Shown one piece after another: positions 1,131 to 60,867 of a stretch of DNA of 64,000 nt; positions within the stretch are counted from its first letter, which is position 1, and every line of letters begins with the position of its first letter. Source of the DNA: Buxus sempervirens. Taxonomy: Eukaryota > Streptophyta > Magnoliopsida > Buxales > Buxaceae. The stretch covers positions 124,001-188,000 of the forward strand of contig OX387193.1 of NCBI GenBank assembly GCA_947561395.2. Reading direction: 5' to 3'. The notes under the pieces were generated by a model that worked only from the letters and a program-made list of their open reading frames with translations, did no database searches and was not told the DNA's origin. Both the position numbers and the translations under genes were made by a program.

Positions 1131-4100
1131 CAATGCATATGATTTATACTCCAATTCGAATTTATACGTTTTTTTAATTATATATTTTCTTTGTATTTTA
1201 ATGGGTTTTAAGAATTTTTTTCCTTTTTTGATTTTTTTTTAAATATGTTCCTCTTTTGGTTTAGATATCAAGAAGTATCTATATTAATTTATTTTATACT
1301 TTTTGCTATGGAATTTTAGGTTCCGTTTGCTGTTTTTGTTTTAATTTTTTTTATTTTTTCGTTGTTTGGTGCCTTTTGTCACTTAATGTGAATTTGCATT
1401 CTTAGTTTTTTCCCGAATTGTTTGATATTTAATTTTATTTGATTTTATTATTTTCATTAAATCAATTTATAGAAATCTATTTGTATTTTATAATTTTCCC
1501 TTTTTTCATGATTTTAAGTATTAATGAGTTTGTCATCTTCCTCTTCTTTAATTTCATTTAAGGCATTTGACAATTTTTTGTATGAATATTTAAAGGTAAG
1601 ATTAGAGTTTATTTACTCTTTCGTAAATAAATAAAGATTAAATAATTGTTTTTGAAACAATAAAAAACTTGCATTAATGTAAAATATATATATTTTGAAA
1701 TAAGTGGTGGTTTGTTGTTACAATTTATATCTTGACTGAATTGCACATACATCATAGAGCACACATGGAATCATTGTAGGTCACACACTAAATCATCATA
1801 GGGCATGTACCGCATTATCATAGGCCACATGCTACATTATTGTAGGAAACATACGTCATTATCATAGGTCACACACTACGTCTTCATAGGACACACACTT
1901 GTTTAGAAAATAGACTCATAAGGGGTAATCTACTCCAAGGAAAAATTGTTACAGTATACTATTACTTATTTTTAAACATTTTTTAAAAGCATGGCAAGTT
2001 TTTTTAATTATATGAGAAGCCATCAATTAATCTTAGTTTATTTTGTAAAGTATGATTAAAACCTAATTTTGCCATAGTTAAAACTATTTTTACGGTGTTT
2101 TCATATTTTTCGCTTTTTGTGTTTGTGTTCGAATTGATATAAATTGTTGAATTTATTGATATTTATTTCTATTTTGTGCTTTTATTAAATTTTCACATAT
2201 TTTAGAATAGGTTTTACTATTATTTATCATTTACTATAATTTTGGTTTCCTTTGAGATATTTAATTTTCATTTACTTTTTAAACTCATTTTAGTATATTC
2301 AATTATTCTTAATCGGTTGAAGATATATATGTACTTCTTTTTTTTCCTAAATTTCTTTGATTTTTCTTTGTCTTTTTATTCTAATTTTCTTTCGGTAAGG
2401 TATTTTGCATCTGATTCTGTTGCAACAAATATTTTATTCTCCTATTTTCTTTAATATATTTTGTCGTTTTCATATTCTATCATGTTTATTGATATTTCTA
2501 CAAACAATTTTAATGTTTTCCTCAAATTTTCTACCATGGCTGGAGCTTTTTATTGAATCTCAGAAAATCAAAGTTTTTTTGTGACCTTAAAATGTCTATA
2601 TTTTCACTATTTATGTATCTTATGGAATTGATGATTATTATTATTTTTTGTAGGCTTCTATTTCTTGCACACCTAAAGCTAAAGTTATTAGAGTCTTTTA
2701 TTCCTATTTTTCCTTTTCCTAGGATTTTTTTTCGATGAGTCGGCTTTCATGCAATGGAGATCTTAAAATATTTTGCCATTTCCTTATTTGGTTTTTATGT
2801 TTGTGTTAAATATTATTGTGTTTTTGCCGTGGTCCTTTTTCTTTGATATTTTTTATTTTAATATCTGCTATCTTTCGATTTAGTGTGTTCTTTTGAACAA
2901 TTCTCCATTGGTTTGTGCTTTTGCTTGAGTAATCAAAGTTTATATTCCTCTATAATTTATAATGTTTTTATGATTTGAAATTTTTATTGGATACTTTTTT
3001 TTTTCACTGTTTTGTCAGTACTTTATGTTGTAAATTGTAATGAGTTTTCAATAGCTCATTTTTCTCACATTTTTAGGTGTTTATGACTTTTTTGCAAGTC
3101 TCTTGAGCTATTTTTCTCTTTTGAAATTTAGAGTTAATTGTATTATGACGTAGACCCAATGTACAAACAAATGTCGAACTCCTTGTGATGTGGGGGAAAT
3201 TCAAATGAGAGAATTATTTGGAGATAAATATTGAATTGAAGGATCTGTAACTAAGAACTTGAATAACAATTTTTGAAGTGCTAAATCGAGTTCCATAATT
3301 TTTACTGACATCAAACTGGTAAGGTAGTTGCTTTGTTCTTTCTGTGGGGTTTTTGTGCTACACAACTACTATTGACTTTTCTTGTTCATAGATTTTCTGG
3401 TTTTTTTTATTGTTTTTCCCCTCTTGGAGTAAGATTAGGGGAGTGGAGCAGACCAGCTTTTTATTTCGGCAGGCTTCAAAGGTATTTTCATATGTATCTC
3501 ATGGCCAAAATTTTGAGCTTTCTCAACTGATTCTCTAGTGTTTGGGTGGTTTATAAATGGTGAAATACATGTTTTGGTGTTTCTATATTTAGTCAAATGT
3601 TGTTATATTGTCAATGCCTTTTTCGCTTGTGGAATGGTTATCATTGGAAACTTTGTGACAATTACATTGCTTGTTACTGATTTCTTTATAATGAACCTAA
3701 CAATCATCTGAGCATGTGTCGTTATTTTTTCCTTCTTTTGTCACTCATTGATAAAATACTTTGCTCATAAAATTTATTATCAAGTGATGAATATTGAAAG
3801 TTGCATTGTTAAGGACGTATGGTTTTTATATTCTTGTAGGTCTACCATATTGTAGCAAGAGATGTCATATTTCGTATTCATGTGTTGTACTTGTGCCATA
3901 GTACAATAAATGGGAGTTGTTCCTCAACAAGTTTTCAACAGTTGAAATTCTAAATCAGTTTTTTTTCTTTATTTTTTTCCATCGATGCATATGGGGAGAC
4001 TTTAGTTAGTCCTGCCATGTTTTAGATTGTATTTCTGATTGTGGCGGTGGCTGCTTTTCGTTTGATACCGCAACCCTTTGCTTGCTCCGGATTCTTCTTA

Positions 4101-4955
4101 TTTTTGACTACAACTTTTTACTAAAAATAAGGGGAATATTTTATCAGGGTGAACATTTTGAGAATCCATTAATTATGATCACAGAGACAGGTTTGGAGTA
4201 ATGGCATAGTTCCCAGTTATTTCCTTTTTGTGAATAAATTGCAGACCTTTATAAGCTTTGTTCCTACCTTTTTTAAGTGATTTATACATATCTCAGGATT
4301 GATTAGTTGCTAGCTATTGGGTTTTCTTCTCACAAGTAATGCCTTTTCTTGTTATTCTAAATCGGATTTCCCATTAAAAGAATTACTGATGATACTTCTT
4401 GGGAAAATGGGAAATGGCCTGGATCAGTAGTTGTAATGTTACGAGAGGTAGAATGTGGTTTTAGAGGCGAATGTTAGCGAGTAAGGACAACAATGAGACT
4501 AGTAAATGATTATTGAGTGCAGACTTAATGCTACTTTTACTTGGAACAGATTTTATGCCCAACAGCATCTAAGATCATCCTACAGTAAATACTCGGTTAG
4601 TAGGATCATTTCCGTTTTAGCCTTGAGTGAGGATTTTATCATCTACAAACTACAATTGTCATATGACGTTGTTGTCTCCGAGATTGAAAAGTTTAACCTG
4701 TTACTCTCTGCAGATTTCTAAAAGGTCTTTTAAGACATCCTCCATTAGAATGAAAGGAATGGTGGAAATGAGGAACTCTGTAGTTTGAACCCTTCGAAGA
4801 CCCAAAGAAATGTGGAATTTTCTCACTTAAAACTTGAGTGAGAGAGATTCTTGAGGTAATTCTAGCAAAACTTTTGAATCCTTTCACTTTCATTTTTGCA
4901 TCTAGGAAATATGAGTGCTGTTTGCTTTGAGTTAGTTGTAGTATTACAGTTGTCA
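1131..4955 (+). repeat. R repeat, copy A (T-rich, about 3.8 kb)
   Basis: This T-rich stretch recurs several times in the window. Landmarks, in order, are 'gtttagatatcaagaagtat' (about 1262), 'gaattgcacatacatcatag' (about 1739), 'aagcatggcaag' (about 1989), 'tggctggagctttttattga' (about 2539) and 'gagctatttttctctttt' (about 3105), followed by a second part from about 3128 to 4950. The span 1685-4950 is matched closely and almost collinearly by 25148-28410. It contains no open frame with a recognisable product; predicted peptides are F/L/I-rich translations of T-rich DNA. The family is not recognised: no target-site duplication, primer-binding site or transposase motif was seen. Confidence 0.8.
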
Positions 4956-5784
4956 TTTAACTGACTTTATTATCTAGGAATTTATGGTTTTTTCTTTTGG
5001 CCTGTAGAATTTCAGAAGTTCTCTTTAATTGACATTTTAGGCGTCCCTTGTATTGGAGATGTGGGTTTTGCATTATATTCTTGCTTTTATTAGTTTAGTG
5101 GTAAAGCCAAGGATTTAGTTTCATTAACACCTTGACAAGTATCTTATAGGATTGTCAAAGCCAATGATTTGGAGTGCCTAATTTCTTTATCCAATGGACC
5201 TGCTATATTAGGAGTAAGGATGGAAGGCGTGGCATGTTGGCAACGCCAAGAAGGAGCCATCCAAACTTCGTATAGAGGCCTTACCAAATTAAATGGTTTA
5301 CAAACTTTTTCATTTTTGTGATTTGGTAATTATCTATATTCACTGTCTTTTTTACTTATGTTATTCTTTTAAATTTCTTGATATTTATTCCTCTTGTTTT
5401 TATATTCTGATTTTTTTAAATGCTTTTTTTATGATTTAAATATTTTTCCTTCTTTGTTATGCTTTAGGTCTTTATATGTGATTTTCCATTTGGTTTTCCT
5501 TTTTAAGATCGTTTTGGGAGGCAATTATTTATCTTTTGGTTAGGTTTTCCTTTTTAATCTTGTTTCTTTTTTTATTTAGGATTTTTAAAGTTCGTTTTAG
5601 TACATGTTTTTTTTTTAAATTTTATTTATTTATTGTCAATTTGATTTGGCTCTTATTTGCGAATTTTCTTTAGTTTTTTCATTTTAAGGTTCGCTGAGAA
5701 TCCTCATAAGTATTTTTATTCCTTTATATTCTTTGATATCTTTTCGTATTTAGTTTAAACATGTTTTTCCCATGCTTTTTGGTT
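4956..5784. other. T-rich spacer, nothing recognised
   Basis: The left part (to about 5300) has ordinary composition and no recognisable coding potential. From about 5300 to 5784 it is oligo-T-rich with repeated 'ttgatatttatt'-type words, like the unassigned T-rich stretches near 9.2-9.6 and 20.9-21.7 kb. Confidence 0.4.
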
Positions 5785-5793
5785 TTATATTTT
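5785..5793. repeat. 9-bp target-site duplication, left copy (Pack-MULE)
   Basis: TTATATTTT directly precedes the left TIR and is repeated exactly at 7328-7336 directly after the right TIR. One unpaired G (5794) sits at the left junction. Confidence 0.85.
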
Positions 5794-5949
5794 GGGAAAT
5801 TTACAGCAACACCCCCTGAGGTTTAAAAATGATCACTTATAACCCCAGGCTTTTAAAAACCGTCGCTTGCTACCCGTACCGTCAGTTTAAGCGAAACGGT
5901 GTTAAATTTCCAATTTTGAAAGACAAAATTGCCCTTCTCCCTTAAAGAC
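5794..5949 (+). repeat. left terminal inverted repeat of the Pack-MULE
   Basis: This arm of about 156 bp pairs with the reverse complement of 7141-7327, from GGAAA at the outer end to CCCTTAAAGAC at the inner end. Identity by eye is about 85-90 percent outside one indel. Confidence 0.9.
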
Positions 5950-6175
5950 GTGCTCTTATCGAATCTGGGTTTCAAATAAAAAAGATCATCTTCCAAATCG
6001 GATTTCGAATATCAATCCAATAATCCGAAGAACTTTTTGTTGAACCTGCAATCTAAACTCGTTGCCAAACACTCCTCTTTCCTGGTTAAGGGTTTCCACT
6101 TTGGCAGTGCGCCATTGTCTGTTAGCTTCATTTAACACTTGCGAAATGAACTAGGGTTTTAGAGTTCAGCTCCCC

Positions 6176-7128
6176 ATGGCGGCAATGGCACTGCAACTGA
6201 GGTCGAAATATCAGACGTTTAAAAACCCGAGATTCGTTTGTCATTTATCTTCTTCTTCTGACTCCGTAGAAGACAAGAATGATCCTCCATCCACGTCTAC
6301 GGTTACTCCGTCTGCGTCTACGGTTACATTTCCTCCTTCGTTTTCTGCTTATTTCAGCGACATTAAATCAAAACTGAAAGAATCATCGCCTACTCCAAGA
6401 GTTTCCTCGTCTCGCTCTTTCGGGGAATCTTTTTCGTTTGGTTCTTCAAGACCATCGAAACCCGCCTCTTTGGAAGAAATCCGCAAAAGTCTCTTCGAGT
6501 TTTGTCGAAGATGGACTTCGCCTCTGCCTGACGAGGGATCATCTTCGACGTCATCTTCGTCACCACCAACCATCTCGTTTCAGGATCTTTACAAGAGAAA
6601 CGTGATCGAAAAGGGTAAGGATGAGCGCATCGAAGTTGGAGGCGGCACGAGCGGCAAGCTTTCTTTCGAGGCAATTCGTGAAAGCTTAAGACAGGTACGA
6701 GCTTTGTCAAAGAACCAGAATGTGAAGGATCGAGTCAGAGGATCAGGCGACAGAGGGAGCAGGATGCTGCACCCAATGTCTTTAATGGCATTCAGGGACA
6801 GTCTGAGGATCGGCCAAATTCTTCGGTTGTTCATTGGATCAGAGCCGCTTCCAACTTCTATCTTTGGAAAGGAATTGAGTGAGAAGACAGAGAAAGAATC
6901 TTAGGAGCTGAAGACGGAGTTTCTATGGAGATAAACTTAGAAAGCTGCGTCCTGCTGAGACTAAGGGGGATAAGAACTGGCTCTCCCTGTTCGAACTAAA
7001 TCAGAGGCTTGTAAAATTTTGGGAAATGGAGGAGCAAGAGGCGAGTTCAAGGATTAGTGGAGTTTCCTTCAAGGACCTGAGGGAATGCTTAGTGAAGATG
7101 CACACGTCGGACAGTGATAGGGCAAAGA
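6176..7128 (+). pseudogene. captured N-terminal part of a mitochondrial ribosomal protein S15 (uS15m) gene
   Basis: From the ATG at 6176 an open frame of 242 codons runs to a TAG at 6902. Recognisable blocks are SFSAYFSDIKSKLKES (about residues 57-72), ASLEEIRKSLFEFCRRW (about 98-114), ISFQDLYKRNV (about 131-141) and LSFEAIRESLRQVRALS (about 161-177). After 6902 homology resumes in another frame: GDKLRKLRPAE, WLSLFELNQRLVKF, ISGVSFKDLRECLVKM and SDSDRAKK, to about 7128. These match the long N-terminal extension of plant uS15m proteins (the Arabidopsis At1g15810/At1g80620 type, from memory). The RNA-binding S15 domain that should follow is absent; the copy ends at the right TIR. With a stop, a frame change and no S15 domain it cannot make a working ribosomal protein, although the 242-aa frame could be expressed as a truncated product. 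Confidence 0.75.
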
Positions 7129-7140
7129 AGAGAAGAGCGT

Positions 7141-7327
7141 GTCTTTAAGGGAGAAGGGTAATTTTGTCTTTCAAAATTGCAAAGCTAACACCGTTTCGCT
7201 TAAACTGACGGTAGCGGTAGCAAGCGATGGTTTTTAGAAGTCTAGGGGTTATAAGTGATCATTTTTAAACCACGGGGGGTGTCCGTGCCCTTTGCCCAAA
7301 CCTCAGGGGGTGTTGCTGTGAGTTTCC
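7141..7327 (-). repeat. right terminal inverted repeat of the Pack-MULE
   Basis: This is the partner of the left arm, about 31 bp longer because of an insertion near 7270-7300 (cacggggggtgtccgtgccc region) that partly resembles the TIR's own C-rich motif, as if a short piece had been duplicated. The outer end is GCTGTGAGTTTCC. Confidence 0.88.
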
Positions 7328-7336
7328 TTATATTTT
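7328..7336. repeat. 9-bp target-site duplication, right copy (Pack-MULE)
   Basis: TTATATTTT, identical to 5785-5793. Confidence 0.85.
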
Positions 7337-7481
7337 TTCTTCAACAACTTGATTTTGTAATTAGGCAATTTTTGCACATTCACTTTGTTTTTTTTTTCTT
7401 CAACAATTTTATGTTTTTTGTTACCTTTTACCATTCAGTTTTATCTTATTTGTCCCACAAGTTTTCCTTTTTAACTGTTTT

Positions 7482-9172
7482 TGTAACACCCCAATAAACC
7501 GCATCTCGTCCCTTTGGACTAAGATCAGCTAAAGGATGTTAACCAGGCCCTAATAAACATGATGGTAAAGTTTTTCCTTTATTTTTTTTTAAACAAAAGG
7601 CGTATATAACGCCTAGAAAATGGACGATATCCAAGTGTAAGAAATGCCTGATAAACGTGGGTGCAACATGTACTATATGTGTACAGACAAACTAACTATA
7701 AAAAAGGCATTTAAAGTATAAACCATGAGGGAAAGGTATCAAAAGAACCCATTAAAAGTTATATACATGGTTTTACAAAAGTGGGTCATCTAAGCATCTC
7801 ACATCCCTCTCTTTCTCTTTCTATCTACATAAGTCCAAAATAAGATATACATTATCTAAGGAGACCTAGCTGGCCTGAAGAAATCCTCCTCTTTGTAGCC
7901 CAAAGCTTTCTCCTTCCCCTTATCAGCTTTAACTCCAGACGTCGATGGATCTAAAACAAAACCGATAAACCACGTTTGATGAGACGAAGGGTCCCAGTAA
8001 GCAACACTATGCATGCTTTTGAAAACCACAGTTCATGCCATATCTTTTCAATTCCATGATGCATAGCAATGTATCGAAAACCGATGTAATAATGCCGATA
8101 TACATCTTTGCCTATCATTCATGATATTTAGCACAAGCATACAAGGGCATTCATCAATCAATGGAAACCAGCATTAAAATATACTAACTCTTAGCGACAA
8201 CAACCATGTTAATCTCATTCCATTTATAGAGTTAATTAGGTGGTTTAATTGTAAACGTCAGGACCACATCTAACTCTATAGGTTTCCCATATAGGTTAGG
8301 CATCCAACCCGATTCCCCTTGGTATTGGGCATCCTAACGCCGATTCCCCTTAGCGTAGGGCATCCAGATGAAGCTTGGGCATCAGCCACCGATTCCCCTT
8401 GGTGCTGGAATTCAGTACAACTGTCGGCCTCTAGCCGGTATCAATAGAATCCACACATGATGAAACAATAGTATCCAAGGTCATGGCATTTATATTTAAA
8501 CACACCTACTTAAGTTATACGGATCCGCATCTTAAGTTAAAATTTTATGCCTTTCATTTTATTTGGTATCTCACACAATCATTTCCATGTCAACAGAACT
8601 ATGTTTCTCAAGCACAGCCTATAGGGCTACTAGTTCACAATCATCCAGGCCATTGCCCCATGGTTTACATTTCGTTTTCAGATCATGGGCCTATGCCCTC
8701 ATGCTTCCATACATTTCATGTATAAATTCAAGCAATGATTTCTTATGCAAACAGAATATCACATTTATCTCAATTTGCAAACCTACTATAGTCACATGCA
8801 TCTAAAATAAATTGCAACTTATTTAACAGCAACATATAATAATATTAATCCCATACTTGCAACAGAGGTCCGAAATTCATTTTGAATTCCAGAAAACTAA
8901 AACAAGATTTTCTTAGAAGGGTGTTGCTTACCTTGAAGCTATAATCACCTTCTTCTTAGCTTTGGCAACTCAAATATAAAATCAAAATACTGTTTTCTTC
9001 AAATTTCCAACTTTGTCTTCTCTCCAAGCTTAAGGTCCCTTCTTGATTTGAGGACTCTGCTTTATGATTCCAATCTAGGCCTCTGAAGGATCACCTTCAT
9101 AACACAAACCCTGTATCAGTTATAATATTACAATTATAACTTAAAGATTGATCAGAAAGTTGGGATCTTACA
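7482..9172 (+). mobile_element. solo LTR of a Ty3/gypsy-type retrotransposon
   Basis: The block begins TGTAACACCCCAATAAACC, ends GTTGGGATCTTACA, and is flanked by the 5-bp direct repeat GTTTT (7477-7481 and 9173-9177). TG...CA ends, a 5-bp duplication and the TGTAACACCCC start typical of plant gypsy LTRs identify an LTR of 1,691 bp. No second LTR or internal region lies beside it, so it is a solo LTR left after recombination between the two LTRs. A short C-rich degenerate internal repeat (variants of 'ccgattccccttgg') lies near 8310-8405. The matching duplication suggests a moderate rather than ancient age. Confidence 0.82.
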
Positions 9173-15990: not shown

Positions 15991-18900
15991 CTTTAAGGTC
16001 TTCATATTTTATTTTCTATTTTGGTTTCTTTTGATTTTTTTTTTTGGTTCAATTATTTATTCCTCTTTAACTTTTTTGATTTAGTATGTTTACTATATGA
16101 ACTTTTTTTTTTCTCTTCAATTGATTTCATATAAAATGACTTGTAAAAGATGTCAAGTAATATAATATAATTTGGATAATTATGAAGCTTCTTGTCATAT
16201 CTTAATGAAAGAACAACAAATGACATGGTAGGATTCAATTCAAAATAAGAATAAAAGTTGATAAAATAAAATAAAAAAGTTCAAATAAGGGTTAAGCTTG
16301 CTGAAGAAATAAATGTAAAATTGCACTAAATGAACTTACTGGGAATGTTATCTCAAAAAAGAAAAAAAAATGAACGTATTGAAAATGTAAAGAGAATCAA
16401 AATAACTAAATTTAAAATTATAAATGGGTGTACTGAATTTTTTAAGGTATGACTGGAAGCCTGAAACATATTTTAATTGTTTAATGTTTTTATACCTTTT
16501 TCACTCAGTTTTTTTTTATCATTTTTCCTAAGCTTCCCCCCTCTTTTCTTTTTCTAAATGATTTTGTCACTGTTCGCTTTTGTGATTTAGTCTTTTTTTT
16601 ATTTAATATTTCACATCATTTATGGTTTTTTTTTGTTGCTAATGTCATTTTTCCGTATTTCTTGATATTTATTTGTATTTTTATTTGTTTTTTACATGTA
16701 CCGATTTAACTCTTTTCATCTTTTTTTATGCCATGAGGTCTTGATATTTATTTATATTTTTATTTGTTTTCCCATTTGCTGCTTGAACTTGATTGTACTC
16801 TTAGCTTGAAATTTGCGGTTCTTTGATTGTACTCTTGGCTTTGGTGTTTGTGTGTCATATTTCCTTTTAGATTCTTGGGTTTTTAGTTAGATGACTGGCC
16901 ATTGGGTTTGTGTAACTTGTTTTGGGTGGTTTTGAGTTCATTTTGACGTGGAAAAGTTGTCATAGTTTTCATTTGTGTGTATGCATCTTTAGAGTCTTTT
17001 GAAATTCAGTTGACTTTATATTTGATTATTGACTTGAACTGGCGCTTAATATCTGTGGTTAATTTTTTCATACTATTTTTAGTAAATTTTATTTGGTATA
17101 AGACCTTATCTATTTAATCATTTTTATATTTGTGATTTTAAATTTGACTTCATATGATTCTATCTCCATTGAAAGATGATTTACTCTGACCCCATTATGA
17201 AATTAAAAAGGACGGTATCTCTATTGTTTAACAATCTGAATCTATTGTTCTTTTTATTGGGAAGTAATGGTTAGAAATATTCAATATCTTGAGGTAGTTC
17301 TGAATCATCATTAATCAATCTTGCGTATCAAGTAAACAGAAAATTAGAAAAAACTACATGTTCGATCCCAATTAATACGTTTTTTTTAATTATATATTTT
17401 GTTTGTATTTTAATGGGTTTTAAGAATTTTTTGCCTTTTTGATTTTTTTTAAATATATTTCTCTTTTGGTTTAGATATCAAGAAGTATCTATATTATTTT
17501 ATTTTATTTTATACTTTTTGCTGTTGAATTTTAGGTTCCGTTTGCTTTTTTTTATTTTTTCGTTGTTTGTTGCCTTTTGCCACTTCATGTGAATTTGCAT
17601 TTTTAGTTTTTTCCCGAATTGTTTGATATTTAATTTTATTTGATTTTATTATTTTCATTAAATCAATTTATAGATATCTATTTTATTTTTATAATTTTCC
17701 TTTTTTTCATGATTTTAAGTATTAATGAGTTTCTCATCTTCCTCTTCTTTAATTTCATTTAAGGCATTTGACAATTTTTTGTATGAATATTTTAAGTTAA
17801 GATTAGAGTTTATTTACTCTTTCGTAAATAAATAAAGATTAAATAATTGTTTTTCAAAACAATAAAAAACTTGCACTAATGTAAAATATATATATTTTGA
17901 GTTAAGTGGTGGTTTGTTGTTACAATGTATATCTTAACTGAATTGCACATTTATCATAGAGCACATATGAAATCATTGTAGGTCTCACACTAAATCATCA
18001 TAGGGCATGCACCACATTATCATAAGTCACAAGCTGCATTATTGTAGGAAACATACGTCATTATCATAGGTCACACACTACGTCTTCATAGGACACACAC
18101 TTGTTTAGAAAATAGACTCATAAGGGGTGATCTAGTCCAAGTAAAAATGGTTACAGTATACCACTACTTATTTTTAAACATTTTTTAAAAAGCATGGCAA
18201 ATTTTTTAATTATATGAGAAGCCATCAATTAATCTTAGTTTATTTTGTAAAGTATGATTAAAACCTAATTTTGCCATAGTTAAAACTATTTTTATAGTGT
18301 TTTCATATTTTTCGCTTTTTGCGTTTGTGTTTGAATCGATATAAATTGTTGAATTTATTGATATTTATTTCTATTTGGTGCTTTTATTAAATGTTTATTT
18401 ACATATTTTAGAATATGTTTTTCTCTTATTTATCATTTACTATAATTTTGGTTTCCTTTGAGATATTTAATTTTCGTTTACTTTTTAAACTCATTTTAGT
18501 AGATTCAATTATTCTTATTCGGTTGAAGATATATATGTACTTCTTCTTTTTTTTCTTAAATTTGTTTGATTTTTCTTTGTCGTTTTACTCTAATTTTCTT
18601 TCGATAAGGTATTTTGCAGCTGATTCTGTTGCAACAAATATTTTTATTCTCCTATTTTCTTTAATATATTTTGTCATTTTCATATTCTATCATGTTTATT
18701 GAGATTTCTACAAACAACTTTAATGTTTTCCTCAAATTTTCTACCATGGCTGGAGCTTTTTATTGAATCCTAGAAAATCAATGTTTTTTTGTGACCTTAA
18801 AATATCTATATTTTCACTATTTATATATCTTATGGAACTGATAATTATTATTATTTTTTGTAGCATGCTATTTCTTGCACACCTAAAGCTAAAGTTATTA

Positions 18901-19457
18901 GAGTCTTTCATTCTTATTTATCCTTTTCCTAGGATTTTTTTTTCTGTGAGTCGGCTTTCATGCAATGAAGATCTTAAAATATTTTGCCTTTTCATTATTT
19001 GGTTTTTATGTTTGTGTTAAATATTATTGTGTTTTTGCCGTGGTCGTTTTTTTCTGATATTTTTTATTTTAATTCTGCTATCTTTCGATTTAGTGTGTTA
19101 TTTAGAACAATTCTCCATTGGTTTGTGCTTTTACTTGAGTAGTCAAAGTTTGTATTCCTCTATATTTTAATGTTTTTATGATTTGAAATTTTTATTGGAT
19201 ACTTTTTTTTCACTGTTTTGTCAGTACTTTATGTTGTAATGAGTTTTCTATAGCTCATTTTCTCACATTTTTTTGTGTTTATGACTTTTTTGCAAGTCTC
19301 TTGAGCTATTTTTCTCTTTTGAAATTTAGTATTTTTCCTTTTTTTCGCTTTCCACTTTTTGTTATGTGAAGGTAATTTTTTTAATTGGTAATTCAGCTTT
19401 TTTGATCGAGTGTATTTCTCCTTTTTTCTTTAGTAACAAGTATCTTATAGGATACGC
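15991..19457 (+). repeat. R repeat, copy C (most complete copy)
   Basis: Runs from the end of one GA-rich TIR element to the start of the next. Order of parts: 'ctttaaggtcttcatatttt', 'ggttaagcttgctgaagaaa' (16291), 'ggtatgactggaagcctgaa' (16446), 'gcttgaacttgattgtactc' (16783), 'acatgttcgatccc' (17357), 'catagggcatgcacc' (17999), 'tggctggagctttttattga' (18748) and 'gagctatttttctcttttga' (19303). With the TIR element it forms a tandem unit of about 4.03 kb. No coding region. Confidence 0.8.
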
Positions 19458-25147: not shown

Positions 25148-28100
25148 ATCTCAAAATATATATATTTTGAAATAAGTGATGGTTTGTTGTTACAATTTAT
25201 ATTTTGACTGAATTGCACATACATCATAGAGCACACATGGAATCATTGTAGGTCACGCACTAAATCATCATAGGGCATGCACCGCATTATCATAGGCCAC
25301 AAGCTGCATTATTGTAGGAAACATACGTCATTATCATAGGTCACACACTACGTCTTCATAGGACACACACTTGTCTAGAAAATAGACTCATAAGGGGTAA
25401 TCTAGTCCAAGGAAAAATTGTTACAGTATACCATTACTTATTATTAAACATTTTTTTAAAAGCATGGCAAGTTTTTTTCATTATATGAGAAGCCATCAAT
25501 TAATCTTAGTTTATTTTGTAAAGTATGATTAAAACCTAATTTTGCCATAGTTGAAACTATTTTTATAGTGTTTTCATATTTTTTGCTTTTTGTGTTTGTG
25601 TTCGAATTGATATAAATTGTTGAATTTATTTATATTTATTTCTATTTTGTGCTTTTATTAAATTTTCACATATTTTAGAATAGGTTTTACTCTTATTTAT
25701 CATTTACTATAATTTTGGTTTCCTTTGAGATATTTAATTTTCATTTACTTTTTAAACTCATTTTAGTACATTCAGTTATTCTTAATCGGTTGAAGATATA
25801 TATGTACTTCTTCTTTTTTTTCCTAAATTTCTTTGATTTTTCTTTGTCTTTTTACTCTAATTTTCTTTCGGTAAGGTATTTTGCATCTGATTCTGTTGCA
25901 ACAAATATTTTTCTTCTCCTATTTTCTTTAATATATTTTGTCGTTTTCATATTCTATCATGTTTATTGATATTTCTACAAACACTTTTAATGTTTTCCTC
26001 AAATTTTCTACCATGGCTGGAGCTTTTTATTGAATCCTAGAAAATCAATGTTTTTTTGTGACCTTAAAATATCTATATTTTCACTATTTATATATCTTAT
26101 GGAACTGATAATTATTATTATTTTTTGTAGCCTGCTATTTCTTGCACACCTAAGGCTAAAGTTATTAGAGTCTTTTATTCCTATTTACCTTTTCCTAGGA
26201 TTTTTTTTTCGATGAGTTGGCTTTCATGCAATGAAGATCTTAAAATATTTTGCCCTTTCCTTATTTGGTTTTTTTGTTTGTGTTAAATATTATTGTGTTT
26301 TTGCTGCGGTCCTTTTTCTTTGATATTTTTTATTTTAATATCTGCTATCTTTCGATTTAGTGTGTTCTTTTGAACAATTCTCCATTGGTTTGTGCTTTTA
26401 CTTGAGTAATCAAAGTTTATATTCCTCTATAATTTAATGTTTTTATGATTTGAAATTTTTATTGGATACTTTTTTTTTTCACTGTTTTGTCAGTACTTTA
26501 TGTTGTAAATTGTAATGAGTTTTCAATAGCTCATTTTTCTCACATTTTTAGGTGTTTATGACTTTTTTGCAAGTCTCTTGAGCTATTTTTCTCTTTTGAA
26601 ATTTAGAGTTAATTGTATTATGACGTAGACCCAATGTACAAACAAATGTCGAACTCCTTGTGATGTGAGGGAAATTCAAATGTGAGAATTATTTGGAGAT
26701 AAAAATTGAATTGAAGGATCTGTAACGAAGAACTTGAATAACAATTTTTGAAGTACTAAATCGAGTTCCATCATTTTTACTGACATCAACCTGGTAAGGT
26801 AGTTGCTTTGTTCTTTCTATGGGATTTTTGTGCTACACAGCTACTATTAACTTTTCTTGTTCATAGATTTTCTGTTTTTTTTTATTGTTTTTCCCCTCTT
26901 GGAGTAAGATTAGGGGAGTGGAGCAGACCAGCTTTTTATTTCAGCAGGCTTCAAAGGTATTTTCATATGTATCTCATGGCCAAAATTTTGAGCTTTCTCA
27001 ACTGATTCTCTAGTGTTTGGGTGGTTTATAAATGGTGAAATATCATGTTTTGGTGTTTCTATATTTAGTCAAATGTTGTTATATTGTCAATGCCTTTTTC
27101 GCTTATGTGGAATGGTTATCATTGGAAACTTTGTGACAATTACTTGCCTTGCTTGTCACTGATTTCTTTATAATGAACCTAACAATCATCTGAGCATGTG
27201 TCGTTATTTTTTCTTTCTTTTGTCACTCGTTGATAAAATACTTTGCTCATAAAATTTATTATCAAGTAATGAATATTGAAAGTTGCATTGTTAAGGATGT
27301 ATAGTTTTTATATTCTTGTAGGTCTACCATATTGTAGCAAATGAGATGTCATATTTCGTATTCGTGTGTTGTACTTGTGCCATAGTACAATAAATGGGTG
27401 TTGTTCCTGAATAGGTTTTCGACAGTGGAAATTCTAAATCTGTTTCATTTTTCTTTTCTTTTTTCCGTGGATGCATATGGGGAGACTTTAGTTGGCCCTG
27501 CCATGTTTTAGATTGTATTTCTTATTGTGGTGGTGGCTGCTTTTCACTTGATGCCACAGCCCTTTGCTTGTTCCGGATTCTTCTTATTTTTTACTACAAC
27601 TTTTTACTAAAAATAAGGGAATATTTTATCAGGGTGAACATTTTGAGAATCCATGAATTATGATCACAGAGACAGGTTTGGAGTAATGGCATAGTTCCCA
27701 CTTATTTCATTTTTGTGAATAAATTGCAGACCTTTATAAGCTTTGTTCCTACCTTTTTTAAGTGTGATCTATAGAGCTCTTAGGATTGATTAGTTGCTAG
27801 CTATTGGGTTTTCTGCTCACAAGTAATGCCTTTTCTTATTATTCTAAATCGGATTTCCCATTAAAAGAATTTCTGATGATACTTCTTGGGAAAAAGGGAA
27901 ATGGCCTGGATCAGTAGTTATAATGTTACGAGAGGAAGAATGTGGTTTTAGAGGCGAATGTTAGCGAGTAAGGACAACAATGAGAGAAGTATATGATTGT
28001 TGAGTGCAGACTTAATGCTACTTTTACTTGGAACAGATTTTATGCCCAACAGCATCTAAGATCATCTTACAGTAGTTAGTAGGATCCTCCCCTTTTTAGC

Positions 28101-28410
28101 CTTGAGTGAGGATTTTATCATCTACAAACCACAATTGTCATATAACTTTGTTGTCTCCGAAATTGAAAAGTTTAATCCATTACTCTCTTCAGATTTCTGA
28201 ATAGTCTTTTAAGACATCTTCCATTAGAATGAAAGGAATGGCGGAAATGAGGAACTCTGTAGTTTGAACCCTTCGAAGACCCAAAGAAATGTGGAATTTT
28301 CTCACTTAAAACTTGAGAGAGAGACATTCTTGAGGCAGTTTTGGCAAAACTTATGAATCCTTTCACTTTCATTACTGCATCTAGGAAATATGAGTGCTGT
28401 TTGCTTTGTT
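25148..28410 (+). repeat. R repeat, copy E (about 3.26 kb)
   Basis: Nearly collinear with 1685-4925 of copy A, including the second part ('gacgtagacccaatgtacaa' at about 26622; 'ggaatggttatcattggaaa' at about 27109; 'gaggaactctgtagtttgaa' at about 28248). It starts abruptly at 25148 in the middle of the repeat and diverges after 'atgagtgctgtttgcttt' (about 28408). Identity with copy A by eye is well above 90 percent. No coding region. Confidence 0.8.
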
Positions 28411-32504: not shown

Positions 32505-35500
32505 ACTGAAGATCCCAAGCATCTGAGAAGCTAAGAAAAATAGATAAAAGTTCCATTTTCACCAGTTGCAACTAGCCAAGAAGAACCTTTTATAATGACT
32601 TCCTTTAAATATTTTTGAAGTTGCTTCCAAATAAAAGAATGCTTTCTTTTCACTGAAGCATCTAGAAAAGCACAATCAGGAAAGTAAAGTGATTTCATAA
32701 TGGATTTCCAAAAGCACCAGTGAGTAGAGTGAAGCTGCCAAGCAGCTTTCAACAAAAGAGCAGTGTTTGCGAGTTTAGAGCTTTTAATGTTCAATCCCCC
32801 ATGACGCAAGGGCAAGGTAATTTGATTCCAACATATAGTTGGGAAAGCATGTTTCTCTGACACCTTTTGCCAAAAAAAATCCTCTGGCTATTTTGTCCAA
32901 CCTTTCATGGATTGATGAAGGAAGAAGGAAACACTGCATGTAATAGTTGGGAATGGCAGAGAGGACCGATTGTATCAATGTTGTGCGACCCATTCGGGAT
33001 AGTAGTAAAGCTTTCCAATTAGACAATCGGTCTTGAACCTTTGTGATCAAATCCCTGCAGTCCTTAGGAGTAGGCTTCTTGAATAATACTGGAAGGCCAA
33101 GGTACTTATCTACATTGCCATTTACAGATATATTGAAAATACTTGTGATTTCTGCTCTATCATGATGCCAGGTAGTTTTACTGAAAAAAATAGAAGATTT
33201 TGAGTAATTGAGTTCTTGACCTGATTCAGCACAGAATTTATGCAATAGCCTGATCAAGCGATGTGCCTCTCTGCTGTTAGCATGACCATATAAGATAATA
33301 TCATCAACGAACATTAAATGTGTTAAAGGTGGACTGCGGTGTGACAGCCGTATACCATTGAACCTGCCTTCCATCTCATATCTAGAAATTGCTGGACAGA
33401 ACTTGCTGACAGAGGATAAAGAGATAGGGGGATCATCAACGAACATTAAATGTGTTAAAGTTGGACTGCGGTGTGACAGCCGTATACCATTGAACCTGCC
33501 TTCCATCTCATATCTAGAAATTGCTAGACTCAGAACTTGCTGACAGAGGATAAAGAGATAGGGGGACAAAGGGTCCCCCTGTCTCAAGCCTCTGGAAGCC
33601 TGAATATTCCCAACTGGTGTGCCATTAAATAGGGCACTATATGTGGCTGATTGCACACATGCCATAATCAAATTAGAGGTCCGCTCATTAAACCCACATG
33701 TTGTCAACACTTTTCTCAAGAAACTCCAGCTTACTTTATCGTAAGCTTTAGAGAAGTCCAATTTTAAACCCTAAAAACCCCAGTGGAGTGTTTTTATGGG
33801 GGGTTTTTGAGCTTATGGAGGAAATGGCATATTTCATGATGGATAAGGATGTTGTCATGAATATTTCTGCCAGGTACAAAAGCTGCCCGTGTGGGATCAA
33901 TAAGTTTAGGTAACAGTGGTCTTAGCCTCGACTATGATTTTAGAAATAATCTTGTAGCTCACATTGCAGAGGCTAATGGGCCTATAGTGATTGAGTGACC
34001 GCGGGTTGGTCACCTTTGGCACGAGGATTATGAAAGTATAATTCAATCCCTGTGGTAAAGTACCATATTGAAAGAAGTGTTGAACAGTTTCCACAATTTT
34101 TTTACCAACAGTGTCCCAGGACTTCTGATAAAAGATGGCTGGAAAGCCACCAGGGCCAGGGGCCTTAAAAGGAGGCATCTCTTTCACAACTTGCCAGCTT
34201 TCATCGTTAGAAGGTACCTGAATTAATGCCATATTCTGAGCATTTGTGATTTGAGATTGAATGAGCCCTGGCAACTGAATTTCTGTGCAGTCTGGATTGG
34301 CCCTGTACAGAGAGTCAAAATAACTTAAATAAGTAATAATATGAGATTCCATCTGATTATATTCAGTTAATTCCACGTTGTCTACAGTTCTAAGTGAATG
34401 GATGAAATTCCGACCACGTCGGATCAAGGTAGTCTTATGGAAAAATCTGGTGTTCAGATCCCCATATGATAGCCACTTCACACGGGATTTTTGGAACCAG
34501 TATACTTCCTGTTGTGACAGCAGCTTGGAGTACTCTTTTTGCAAGGCCTGTTCCTTCAAGATCAAATTGGCTTCTTTGCTTTCGGAGATGGATTCCTGCA
34601 ATGTCTGAATTTGGGCTTGAATCTGAGCAATTTTCTCATGAATATTCCCCACTTCCATTTTGTTCCACTTCTTTAATTGCCATGCTAAATTTTGAAGCCG
34701 ACTTGGCAGCAACAATGATGTTGAACCTTGCTCCCAGACTTTATGAATGAGTTGATGATTCGATGGTTCCTCTAGCCACAAGGCTTCAAACCGAGACGGT
34801 CGGCGTTTAGCTCTGTCCTTGTGGAGGAGATTCAAGATCATTGTGCAATGATCAGATACGACAATAGCCTGAGAACACAATAGAGGATTAGGGAATAAAT
34901 CAAAAAAAATTTCTGTTACAAATCCTCTATCAAGTTTCTCAGATATTCTGTGGAAGCCGTGTTGCCCGTTGGTCCACGTGAATTGTGGACCTTTGATAGG
35001 TAACTCACACAGGTTACAGCTTTGGACAAATTGAATAAACTTCTCTGTTTGAATTCTGTTGAGGGGAGAACCACCACGTTTATCAGCTTGTGATAGCATC
35101 GCGTTGAAGTCTCCAAGGATTAAAGAAGGCCCACCACGAGACTTACATAGTCGTTCAATCAGCTCCCATTGCTGCTGTTGAATATGGAGATGAGAACTAG
35201 CATGTAAAAAAATAAGTTGACAAGATTTATCAGTAAAGCTCAGCTGCATTTCAATCAGCCAATGAGTTGAGAACAGAATAGATAAGGAGATGTTATTTGA
35301 CCAAAGGATTAGAAATCCTTCCCGACGATTGATCGAAGGTTGGATAAAACAATTAGGGAAACCTGATTTTCTTGCGATCCGCTGGAGAGTTTTATCTGTT
35401 GATAACGTTTCAGAAAGCAGAACAATATCAGGGGAGTTTTTCAAATTTTGCTCTTTAAGATGTCGTTGTGTCAGAGGCCTCCCCAAGCCTCGACAGTTCC

Positions 35501-36170
35501 AAAATATAATACTCATGACTGCGGACTCCCTAAGGAGTCAGAAGAAGATGAAACAGAAGGAGAAAGAGTGAGTGGTAGTTTTCTCTTTTTTTCTCTCAGG
35601 TTGTGGAGCACTAGGTTCCAGATCACCAGAAATCTCCTTCAGGCTTTTATTGGAAGCCTTCAGCACTAAGTTGGAATCATGGTAGCGCTTGGAGGAATGG
35701 AGCAGTTTTGGTAGTCTTTTCCTTATATCCGACAACTTGAGATGCGGGGATTTTTCAGCTGTAAAAACAACATTGAAGCAATCAGATTCAGATGACAATG
35801 GCAAGGCCCCAGATAATGTAACATTAAGGGTTGGCGTGGATCCATCCTCCCTGTAAGAAAATGGGTTGGGCCAAGAAGAATCTTAGGGTGCTGAACGAAG
35901 TAATTGATAGCGTGGCCCCTCTATTAATGATTGAGGCAGTGACGTAGAGTTGAACAATGTAGCGACACTACCCATTCCTTTCTACTTCGTTTTATTTTTA
36001 CAAACTTGCCTTCCGTAAGTAGGTTCAGTTCATGGATTGGATGCAACAAGGGAGATTGGCACAGTGGTGATGAGGATCGTCGGCATTGGAAGAGCTGTGG
36101 CTGGGGCATCTATTCTTGGAGATCTCATTCTGGCCCGGAGTAGAGGTTACAGACGAGAGCATTTGAGTTG
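32505..36170 (-). mobile_element. L1-type LINE, near-complete ORF2, 3'-truncated
   Basis: On the minus strand, 35516-33906 is a 536-codon frame starting MSIIFWNCRGLG, the endonuclease start, with LLSETLSTDKTL, LILGDFNAML, QFTWTNGQHG and the catalytic-type VVSDHCTMIL. The RT follows: FKAPGPGGFPAIFYQKSWD, then LNHYRPISLCNVSYK. After a break it continues at 33761 with MDFSKAYDKVSWSFL, RGLRQGDPLSPYLFIL, FVDD, YLGLPVLF and WKALLLSRMGRTTLI, then CWNQITLPLRHGGLNI (32863-32531). The zinc-binding C-terminus and poly(A) end are missing, so the 3' end was lost. Sequence from about 35538 to 36170 is probably the 5' part of the element and has no clear ORF1 motif. At least two frame breaks prevent a full ORF2. 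Confidence 0.88.
33301..33567 (-). repeat. 132-bp in-frame tandem duplication across the LINE RT active-site box
   Basis: Two adjacent copies, 33301-33432 and 33433-33567, are nearly identical. Each encodes AISRYEMEGRFNGIRLSHRS followed by LTHLMFVDD, where FVDD corresponds to the catalytic Y/FxDD box. The reading frame continues through both copies within the 325-codon frame 33761-32784. Confidence 0.9.
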
Positions 36171-56188: not shown

Positions 56189-59100
56189 ATGAATAATGTA
56201 GATGTGTGTATATATATATGTGTGTATGAGAAAGAGAATAGTAACAAGTATACAATCAGAAGCCCAAAAAACTCTCTACAAAAACCTCACAAACCCCACC
56301 AGCCCCTAAACACAAAAAGCAAAGCAAAAACTATGACAACGGATAACAACACGTGTGCCCCCCAAAGACCTAAATCCAAAGCTGAGCGAGCCATTCAACT
56401 TCGGATCAAAAGCATAGCTCACTTCCAATCTCCTAAATCGTATGTGAAGCCCCTCTTCTCATCATGCTATCCTCAATAATAATAGACGAAAAACACCATT
56501 TTTTCCAGTCCACAATTTCTAAAGGCCACAAACCCCGGAATTCAGGAAGAACCGAAGCCCACGATGCTACAGCAATCACTATGGAGTCAAACACTTGGTC
56601 AGTTGATAGCTGTGTGTCCCTGAAAATCCTATTGTTTCGTTCCAACCAAATGAACCAAGCCATTGCATGGAATAATGTATCATACAACAACTTGCCCCTC
56701 TTCCCCAAGCCCTTAATCCGCCACTGATTGAACCAAGCCATAAAAGTATCTGGTAACACCCAAGAGACCCCTACCATCTCAAGCACTCGTGACCAAATAA
56801 AAGTGGCAAAACGACAATGGACAAATAAATGATCAACACTTTCTCCAGACTCCATACACATAATGCAAATATGCGGAGATAAGGAATTCCTTTTCCATCT
56901 TCTTTGGATTAAATCAGCCGTGTTTATCCTGTATAATAAGGCAGTCCATAAGAATGCCTTAATCTTAAGAGGGATCTTGGGCTTCCAAAGTTGAAGAGAC
57001 GAAAAAGATGCTGGAGGAATTGAGGAAGGTTGTAGAACGGAATTGAAGAAGGATTTGCAGGAGAACATAGAATTGGATGACAAAGACCAAGATACCTTAT
57101 CAGAACCTAGGGGATCAAGAACCACATCCTTTAGGCTGTCAAAATGAGCGAAGAGATCTCTTCCAATTCAGAAGGACGAAGATTCCTTTGAAACGGAAGA
57201 TTCCAAGAGAAACCAGAAGGAGACCATTGTAGGGTATTAGCCACAAAAGCAAAAGGTAGGAGAGCAAGGGAGAATAAACGAGGAAACTGGATGGATTAGG
57301 GCTGACTGCCCCACCATAAATCATGCCAAAAACGAGTCGAAGAACCAGATACAATACTCAACCTAACATGAGGATAAAACAAAGGTGCAATTTTCATAAT
57401 GGCTTTCCACGGGCAGTTTCCTGGAGGTCGTGCCCTCAAGTTAATGAACAATCCATTATCGTCACTACCATATTTACTTGTGATCACTTGACGCCACAAA
57501 CTTTCTTTTTCTGTGCTGAACCGCCACAACCATTTTGCAAGAAGAGAGGAATTCCGGTAGGCTATCATACCCGCCCCAATACCACCCTTTTCCTTTGCCA
57601 AACACACCTTATCCCACCTGACTAAATGAATCTTCCTTTTTCCCCCACCCTCCCAAAGAAAGTCCTTTGGGCTTTCTCAATGATGGTCACAACTCTTCTA
57701 GGCATCCTAAACAAGGACATGAAATAAACAGGAAGATTAGCAAGCACAACCTTGATAAGGATAATCCTTCCCCCCAAAGACAAATAATTCCTCTTCCAAA
57801 GTGCCAATCTCTTCTCCACTCTCTCAATGACTGGCTCCCAAAAACTGACATTACAAGGGGAAGCACCAACAGGGAGACCTAGATACGACATCGGCCACTT
57901 ACCAACCTGACACCCTAAGATCCGACTAAGAGATAAGGACTCATCCTCCGCTAAGTTCAAACCAACAATGGAGCTCTTCTCCCAATTAACTTTCAGACCT
58001 GAAATCATATGGAAAGTATGCAAAATGCTCTTCAACCAGATCATTTGGTCCTTAGAGGCTTCCAAAAAAATCAAGGTATCATCCGCAAACTGGAGGTGGG
58101 ATATTGTTACCTCATTTCTTCCAACCTTAAAACCTTTGATCAAATCCCTTCTTCTACCAAACATGAAAAAACTATGCAAAACCTCAGCTACCAAAGTGAA
58201 TAAAAAGGGGGACAATGGATCCCCCTGGCGAATGCCCCTAGAAGAAGGAAAAAACCCTTTCACCCCTCCATTTACCAAGATAGAGAAATGCACATTATTA
58301 AGGCACCCATAAATCCACTTACCAAAGCCTTTCCATTTCAAGACTGAGTCAATGAAAGCCCACTCCATTTTATCATACGCCTTTTCAATGTCCAATTTAC
58401 ACACGACTCCAGGCTCCTTAGATCTTATCCGGCTATCCACACATTCATTTGCAATGAGAGTAGAATCCATGATTTGACGTCCCTCCACGAAGGCACTTTG
58501 ATTTAAAGAAACGATCCCTGGCAACACCTTCTTCAGCCTAACCGACAAAACCTTTGCTATAATCTTATAAACACTAGTTGTCAAACTTATAGGCCTGAAA
58601 TCCTTGATCCCTATTGCCCCAACTTTCTTAGGGATTAGAACAATGAATGTTGCATTTGTGGCCTTCTGAATAATGCCATTCATGAAGAATTCCTGGAACA
58701 CCTTAAACAAATCATCCTTGACAATCTCCCAATTATATTTAAAAAATTCAATTGTAAATCCATCGGGCCCAGGAGCCTTACCCCCTTTTATCTCCCACAA
58801 AGCTTCCTTAATTTCCTTTAGCACAAACTCTCTTTCTAACCACTTTTTCATCTCCTCACTCACCTTTGATTGATCATTCTCCTTTAATCTGAAGCATAAA
58901 TCTTGCTCCGACTTACAAAGCTTAGCATAAAAATCACAAAGAGCCTGGCCAATGTTCTCATTATCCTCAATACTTCTTCCATCCACCTCCAATCTCATGA
59001 TTGAATTTTTAACTCTTCTCCATTTGCTATTCTATGAAAATAAGCTGTGTTTCCATCTCCCTCCTTTAGCCATCTTATTCTTGACTTTTGTCTCCAATGA

Positions 59101-60867
59101 ATTTCCTCATACTTCATAATTCTTTCCAAAGACACTTTGATCTCCAATCTTCTTCTCCTATCTTGGGGCCCCCAATCCCCATTTCTTTCCTTGATATCCA
59201 ACTTGGCTATTTCATCCAAGGCCGCCTTTTTCTGAATCTCCACCCTTCCAAAGGTTTCCTTATTCCACCCTTTAATTTGATTCTTGACCTCTCGAAGACA
59301 CCCCATAAACCTAAAGCCAGTCCAACCTAAGGAAACATTCCTACCTTCCGTCCACCACCCCAGCATAAGATTCTGAAAGACGTATGAGAAAGCCACATAT
59401 TCTCAAAACGAAAAGGAGAAGGACCAGCCAGATAGAACTCATTAGACAGGAAGATAGGAGAATGATCAGAAACTGGTCTGGGAAGAACCCATTGGGCAAT
59501 TGGCAAAAAGTGATTATCCCAAGAGCCTGAAGCAAGACATCCATCCAACCTAGAACATAGTGGAGGGATTTGGAGATTGACCATGTGAATTGCCCACCCT
59601 GCAAAGGATAATCAATAAGCTCACTCTGCTGAATCCAATTCGAAAAATCCCTCATACTTCTATTGACTCGATTCCTGCCATTATTTGACTCATGGGAAAA
59701 TCTATACACATTGAAATCCCCCACAACGAGCCAAGGATTGGCATCCCTAGGGTTACGATTATCCAACTCCTCCCAGGAAAGCTCCCTACCCTAGCCCAAC
59801 ATGGACCATAAACCGCAGTTAATGTCCACTTGTCACGCAGCGACTCAAACCCTATAGAGACAGAGAAGGTGCCCAAGCAGCTATCAAGCTTGCTAAGGCA
59901 CAAAGAATCCCACAATACTATAATCCCCCCCGATCTCCTCGAAGAAGGCAAAAAAACCCACTCCACCCCTCCTAAACTCCGCATCCCTCTAACCACTCTC
60001 AGACCAACCTCTTCTAACTTAGATTCAACGATAACAATGACTTCAGGTTTCCTAATATTACACATCTCCCTTACCACCCGAATCTTGTCACTTCCCCCAA
60101 AACCTCTGACATTCCAACATAGCATCTTCATAGGTCACTAGACAGGCCCCTATCCCTAAACTTACCTTCGAAGTCTTCCACCGCCATAGAAATGGTCACA
60201 GGTGCCCCACACGGAGAGACAACCTCCTCCAGAACCATCTCAGAAAAGGATGTCACCCTATTCCACAAAACCTCTGACTCCGTTCCCACACATCCCTCCC
60301 TCCTCGTAACATCTTGCTCCCCCCCAATATTCAGGGCCATAACAGCCCTGACCTCCCCTCTTCCATGCCCAACAGTTGTGGCGTTTCATCACATACAATC
60401 AAGTCACTGTGCCACCTAGTAATAACAGCATTAGGAAGGGAAGATAATACTAGTTCATTCCCAGAAGAACAACCTCCAGAATCCTGACCTGCTAAAGGAA
60501 CATTATGAGAACTTGACGAGACACAAAGAGGGTGTGGTACATACCGAGAAGGGGCAATAGGAGAAGCAGAAAGGGGATCTGAAGATATGGGAATGATTGG
60601 AGCACCTCTTAAGACCTCCGCCTCTGCCCAGGACTTCGTCTGGTTGATCTGTTCCAAAGGTGATGAAGCAGGAGCCTTCCCACGCATCTTCGCCCCTTGA
60701 GAATAGACCTTCTGGAGAGAGAAAGATGTACTGTCCTGGCCCATAACATCCTGCCGCCCCTCACCAGAAGCATGATGACCATAATCCTCGTGTACAAGTC
60801 TCCACGTCCCTAGTACGAGCTTCCATACCCCTTGTACAAGTCTCCACGTCTCCACATCTTGGCCCAC
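56184..60867 (-). mobile_element. L1-type LINE, about 4.7 kb, nearly complete ORF2, 5'-truncated in ORF1
   Basis: Minus-strand order: tail of an ORF1-like frame (60867-60128, no zinc knuckle left). Endonuclease from MKMLCWNVRGFGGSDK (60131), with VIVIVESKLEEV, SSRRSGGIIVLWD, WLVVGDFNVYRF and GGQFTWS. Linker with IRWLKEGDGNTAYFHRIANG. RT 58998-57622 as one 458-codon frame, with GGKAPGPDGFTIEFFK, FRPISLTTSVYKIIAKVL, SAFVEGRQI, LDIEKAYDKMEW, SSRGIRQGDPLSPFLFTLVA, LQFADDTLIF and YLGLPVGA. C-terminal zinc-binding domain MCMESGESVDHLFVHC (57125-56433). The 3' UTR ends near 56184 beside (AT)n. About five frame breaks exist outside the intact RT frame. The intact RT suggests moderate age. Confidence 0.92.
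57622..58998 (-). CDS. LINE reverse-transcriptase domain, long open frame
   Basis: 458 codons without a stop, containing the RT boxes listed for the LINE, with FADD as the catalytic box. It starts at MRLEVDGRSIEDNENIG in the linker. It is part of ORF2, not a host gene; the upstream endonuclease is in other frames. Confidence 0.88.
   Translation of the reverse strand: MRLEVDGRSIEDNENIGQALCDFYAKLCKSEQDLCFRLKENDQSKVSEEMKKWLEREFVLKEIKEALWEIKGGKAPGPDGFTIEFFKYNWEIVKDDLFKVFQEFFMNGIIQKATNATFIVLIPKKVGAIGIKDFRPISLTTSVYKIIAKVLSVRLKKVLPGIVSLNQSAFVEGRQIMDSTLIANECVDSRIRSKEPGVVCKLDIEKAYDKMEWAFIDSVLKWKGFGKWIYGCLNNVHFSILVNGGVKGFFPSSRGIRQGDPLSPFLFTLVAEVLHSFFMFGRRRDLIKGFKVGRNEVTISHLQFADDTLIFLEASKDQMIWLKSILHTFHMISGLKVNWEKSSIVGLNLAEDESLSLSRILGCQVGKWPMSYLGLPVGASPCNVSFWEPVIERVEKRLALWKRNYLSLGGRIILIKVVLANLPVYFMSLFRMPRRVVTIIEKAQRTFFGRVGEKGRFI

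Follow-up and report, generated by a model that had tools for sequence, protein, structure and literature searches.

A Pack-MULE with a captured uS15m gene fragment and a local duplicate in Buxus sempervirens

More than 3,000 Pack-MULEs are reported from rice, and the gene fragments in them stem from over 1,000 genes; pseudogenisation or loss is given as the commonest fate of such elements, and in maize siRNA effects of captured fragments on their donors are described (PMC13317346). Host gene fragments are likewise moved by Pack-CACTA and other Pack-TYPE elements, and Pack-TYPE elements combining material of several loci are on record (PMC8903248).

The element described here lies in a window of 64,000 nucleotides of Buxus sempervirens DNA (G000:C19:124001-188000). 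Like the Pack-MULEs of rice and other plants it has long terminal inverted repeats (TIRs), a 9-bp target site duplication (TSD), no transposase of its own, and an interior derived from the 5' part of a host gene. The parent of that interior is found elsewhere in the genome, relatives with the same TIR bear transposase sequence, and related elements hold pieces from more than one place. Only the captured gene (exon 1 of uS15m) and a local segmental duplication set it apart from other Pack-MULEs; the structure is the same. Pack-CACTA and other Pack-TYPE elements belong to other superfamilies, with different termini and target duplications; the 9-bp duplication together with the MuDR-type transposase of the family points to a MULE. 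Every defining Pack-MULE feature that was tested is present, and the locus cleanly exemplifies an element type that is already well known rather than a novel one. In the literature searched, to which most papers in subscription journals did not belong, no report of uS15m capture by a Pack-MULE was found. With this locus the long list of captured genes grows by one, and the understanding of Pack-MULEs is unchanged. It is a well-resolved case of gene capture by a DNA transposon: a single genome shows the donor, the two junctions, empty sites and relatives that bear transposase, and through the local duplicate it also allows selection since the capture to be tested.

The element and its surroundings comprise the following parts, in window coordinates.

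5785-5793, plus strand: left copy of the TSD, TTATATTTT, an exact match to 7328-7336.
5794-5960, plus strand: left TIR, beginning with GGGAAATTTACAGCAACACCCCC; the right arm exceeds it in length by about 31 bp (inverted-arm search, alignment with the sister copy).
5954-7128, plus strand: captured uS15m piece, 5' leader and exon 1 to 9 bp short of the inferred splice donor (alignment with the donor, 88%).
6176-6904, plus strand: open frame of 242 codons, a remnant of donor exon 1 (list of open reading frames, three-copy alignment).
7130-7327, minus strand: right TIR, 198 bp (inverted-arm search, TIR alignments).
7328-7336, plus strand: right copy of the TSD, an exact match to the left copy.
3587-7482, plus strand: stretch, flanks and element, in common with the sister copy at C19:107469-111434 (L010 470-4435), 89.4% identical including gaps.

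The exact occurrence of TTATATTTT on both sides delimits the element proper as 5794-7327 (1534 bp). Target duplications of MULEs usually range from 8 to 11 bp. The inverted arms are 93% complementary at the outer ends (5795-5824/7298-7327) and 89% complementary further in (5843-5960/7130-7247). The long TIRs and the perfect 9-bp target duplication of the initial annotation both stand. Its description of the element as intact-looking has to be qualified for the left TIR, which measures about 167 bp and shows 33 gap columns when aligned with the left TIR of the sister. The left edge of the captured piece (5954) runs a few bases into the inner end of this TIR. The interior follows the donor exon along its full length and the element carries no transposase; a Pfam search of the 242-aa frame returned no match at E<=1, and the other listed frames of at least 60 aa do not exceed 106 aa. 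The pattern of arms, TSD and donor match is far beyond chance. The identity of 5794-7327 as a Mutator-like element (MULE) is confirmed, and with a piece of a host gene inside it is a Pack-MULE.

The origin of the interior was traced by a genome-wide DNA search (676.5 Mb, 247 contigs) with the 1552 bases of the element and its TSDs as query. Three matches exceeded 1 kb: the element itself, a sister copy at C19:109722-111289 (91%), and C11:37290876-37292067 on the minus strand (88%). The last matches query positions 170-1344, equal to window 5954-7128, and is without TIRs. It contains an open frame of 340 codons whose start codon at C11:37291830 is equivalent to window 6185, and the copied DNA stops 9 bp short of an inferred GT splice donor at the end of this first exon. 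Later exons encode RLDILGQFRGTPSYMMAPPKEHLVEK (near C11:37288919) and FHPDNMSSSEKMKLELKKVRDEFKMSESDCGSARVQ (near C11:37287752), and Pfam S15 (PF00312, positions 41-81) was matched at C11:37280366-37280488 on the same strand as exon 1. A further exon should lie between the FHPDNMSS exon and that with Pfam S15, but it did not turn up among the open stretches of at least 45 residues there. When compared with uS15m chains of solved mitoribosomes, the exon-1 protein matched 9evs at E=1.9e-32 and 6xyw (At1g15810, Arabidopsis) at E=1.5e-17, and the joined later exons, in a join that omits the unlocated exon and has a filler as its first residue, matched the same chains at E=6.2e-43 and 9.2e-43. From these matches, the C11 donor is the first exon of a uS15m gene with several exons, in agreement with the initial annotation, which had named a uS15m fragment and had suggested a search for the full gene in the same genome. 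Since the S15 domain is encoded in downstream exons, the copy ends before the RNA-binding domain, as had also been proposed, and the captured part is the N-terminal extension of uS15m with the S15 fold left out.

We consider it very probable that the whole history is one of capture by a Pack-MULE, a single insertion, local duplication and neutral decay. A non-autonomous Pack-MULE would have taken up the 5' leader of nuclear uS15m and almost the whole of its exon 1 between the TIRs, perhaps by template switching during gap repair. It then inserted once, presumably driven by a MURA-type transposase from relatives with the same TIR, into a T-rich repeat close to where contig C19 begins, generating the 9-bp duplication. 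The inserted element was duplicated locally, together with its flanks, so that two copies lie about 20 kb apart, and both have drifted neutrally since; the element may also have been silenced. The evidence in hand consists of the TIRs and TSD, the paralogous empty sites, the donor exon, the relatives with broken transposase, the duplication that includes flanks, and the neutral pattern of change. Against the whole history stand the lack of an intact autonomous member among the elements found, the lack of a TSD in the sister and in one further family member (C4b), dN/dS values below 1 in all three comparisons, and the paralogous rather than orthologous nature of the empty sites.

Among the alternatives, the one that fares best is that the element yields small RNAs that silence or tune donor uS15m in trans. 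Such an effect is possible, judged from the shared sequence, but we regard it as unlikely. Of the 1156 interior 21-mers, 269 match the donor locus exactly (327 of 1197 for the sister), and the two sequences are identical over up to 97 consecutive bases. Furthermore, C-to-T and G-to-A changes make up 22 of the 36 changes on the window lineage vs 11 of 34 on that of the sister, an excess which hints at methylation of the window copy and is compatible with it, albeit the signal is built on few changes. On the other hand, selection should oppose such effects where the donor is essential (PMC13317346). The more specific version, in which the captured exon sits between arms that would fold into a hairpin in a read-through transcript and would feed small RNAs directed at an essential mitoribosomal-protein gene, appears more doubtful still; if true, a transposon insertion would tune mitochondrial translation.

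The initial annotation had also recorded that a 242-codon frame is still open, which is correct (6176-6904), and had considered a truncated protein as its product. Compared with the donor, the frame has lost 13 bp near 6802 and 2 bp near 6834, two deletions that jointly restore the reading frame, and it ends in TAG at 6902-6904, where both donor and sister have CAG; the frame of the sister is broken at other places. The window lineage has 8 synonymous and 18 non-synonymous coding changes of its own plus 1 stop, the sister lineage 5 synonymous and 15 non-synonymous ones plus 4 stops. The fraction of non-synonymous plus stop changes is thus 0.70 (19/27) and 0.79 (19/24), respectively, vs a neutral expectation of 0.72 derived from the observed spectrum, all counts being small. 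The purifying selection expected of a functional uS15m paralogue was accordingly not found in the frame. In the frame of the donor, dN/dS was 0.41 and 0.46 for the two copies vs the donor, values that we ascribe to constraint along the branch of the donor; for copy vs copy it was 0.69 (15 synonymous and 35 non-synonymous differences, stop and gapped codons left out). The lineage-specific counts, although the numbers are small, were given more weight than dN/dS.

A functional new gene, making a truncated, mitochondrion-targeted N-terminal peptide of uS15m, is therefore very improbable. The frame is open over 242 codons, the leader and start codon of the donor were copied along with it, the encoded protein still matches uS15m (E=1.5e-9), and the copy-to-copy dN/dS is 0.69 rather than 1. 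These points are outweighed by the neutral-looking lineage changes, by a nonsense change that shortens the frame and two frame-shifting deletions inside it, and by a copy-to-copy divergence that is similar in the interior (0.070) and in the flanks (0.061 and 0.054). A functional open frame was rejected as the leading reading on the lineage-specific coding changes, and the proposed truncated protein is left unsupported, with the sister frame broken and TAG in place of CAG. Given the neutral pattern of change, the 242-codon frame is what remains of the donor exon, and the element is most likely a dead passenger.

The relation between the two C19 copies was examined over their common stretch. For aligned bases, window and sister are 94.1% identical in the left flank, 93.4% in the interior and 94.8% in the right flank; the right TIRs are 92.9% identical and the left TIRs less so, 88.1%. 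The common flanks extend over 2.2 kb to the left (94%) and 155 bp to the right (95%), and beyond the latter lies an insertion found in the window copy only. In the captured piece both copies agree against the donor at 37 positions, which are not polarised, and at two places they carry identical extra bases. Because both flanks are common, the sister about 20 kb away is a segmental duplicate and not a second transposition, and the shared differences from the donor together with the shared flanks show that capture and insertion each happened once and that duplication came afterwards. If a single Pack-MULE had transposed twice independently, both copies would likewise have TIRs at both ends and the same interior; this explanation is ruled out by flanks that match on both sides, and we give it hardly any credence.

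The insertion next to the right flank of the window copy (7482-9172) is 1.69 kb long, starts with TGTAACACCCC and ends with CTTACA (TG...CA ends), is bordered by a 5-bp GTTTT duplication and is absent at the sister. It looks like a solo LTR.

Elements with the same TIR, for which the initial annotation had suggested a search, form a genome-wide family that includes bearers of MuDR-type transposase. The TIR gave at least 110 match rows, those of the element itself counted, among the best 40 of 653 first-look candidates. Fourteen TIR-bounded elements were examined, viz. the element in the window, its sister and 12 others, with 13 partnerless TIR sites among those listed left aside. The 9-bp TSD was exact in 9 of the 14, had one mismatch in 3, which is weaker evidence because end offsets were allowed and the flanks are AT-rich, and was absent in 2 (the sister and C4b). 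A 7.3-kb member on C4 (C4d, ~C4:19726862-19734169) with an exact 9-bp TSD encodes the PF03108 MuDR DNA-binding domain and a SWIM finger, and a 10.1-kb member on C12 (~C12:26849336-26859419), whose 9-bp TSD has one mismatch, encodes PF03108. The Pack-MULE in the window resembles both in TIR and 9-bp TSD and differs from them in having no transposase. The terminal sequence GGGAAATTTACAG is common to all three, and identity to the right TIR of the window is 89% and 86% for the C12 TIRs and 81% for the C4 TIRs. An intact autonomous member was not found; the two transposase bearers fetched, C4d and C12, each have their transposase broken up into separate frames.

The frames of other members were surveyed against Pfam, those of C4a, C10 and C22 being left out of the survey. 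Ras, PWWP, Redoxin and DUF1221 were matched in four members and an LRR just at the cut-off in one more, and no match was obtained for one frame of C11b and one frame of the 13.8-kb C11a. The C11b frame is almost the same as a frame in C4a, and both may resemble a MYB protein. The interiors of C3, C4c and C8 were searched, and all three have donor-like matches of 87-95% elsewhere, apart from the listed TIR matches; those of C4c and C8 each match at least two separate places.

The flanks of the element consist of a T-rich repeat with many relatives in the genome. The two flanks of the sister, joined without the element, were therefore searched genome-wide as an empty-site query, which gave 59 match rows (the sister's own and the flanks of the window counted), 24 of which cross the junction unbroken. 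All six flank paralogues fetched from those 24 are uninterrupted at the insertion point and are 72-78% identical. The empty-site check proposed in the initial annotation thus had a positive outcome, with sites that are paralogous, not orthologous ones from relatives. The alternative in which the arms are part of some larger, unrelated inverted duplication and enclose the gene piece by accident, as might be imagined in so repeat-rich a region, is practically negligible and refuted by the recurrence of the TIR family with 9-bp duplications and differing interiors and by paralogous flanks without insert.

Candidate empty sites inside the window, very old at ~60-64% identity, were dropped as too T-rich for trust. 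Relatives of the flank repeat (5401-5793) are clustered, e.g. at C6:54.95-55.80 Mb and C11:42.05-42.09 Mb, the C6 cluster being near the contig end.

Some members of the family deserve mention in their own right. The interior of the C8 member (L026, ~C8:37420798-37422921) matches several places, including a Redoxin piece from C3:51440962-51441651, and a 94% copy of this member is found at C6:41372688-41374396. The C8 member is without 108 bp present in the Redoxin donor, a gap that at first resembled a spliced-out intron. RNA-mediated (intron-less) capture was rejected as the explanation, since the missing 108 bp, read by eye in the direction of the gene, continue the protein frame, which suggests a deletion; the uS15m capture took place within one exon and has no bearing on RNA-mediated capture. 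At ~C11:8183391-8197203 (L015/L016), 13.8 kb lie between two family TIRs with an exact 9-bp TSD, and one tested frame is without a Pfam match.

Elsewhere in the window, 1159-28412 is a patchwork of long direct duplications (e.g. 1681-4929 vs 25153-28408, 95%; 1159-3131 vs 17370-19329, 93%) and is a locally duplicated region close to the start of contig C19. Two LINE-like stretches on the minus strand, each over several separate frames, were observed at 32784-35537 (endonuclease PF03372 and reverse transcriptase PF00078) and at 56433-60134 (PF00078 and zf-RVT).
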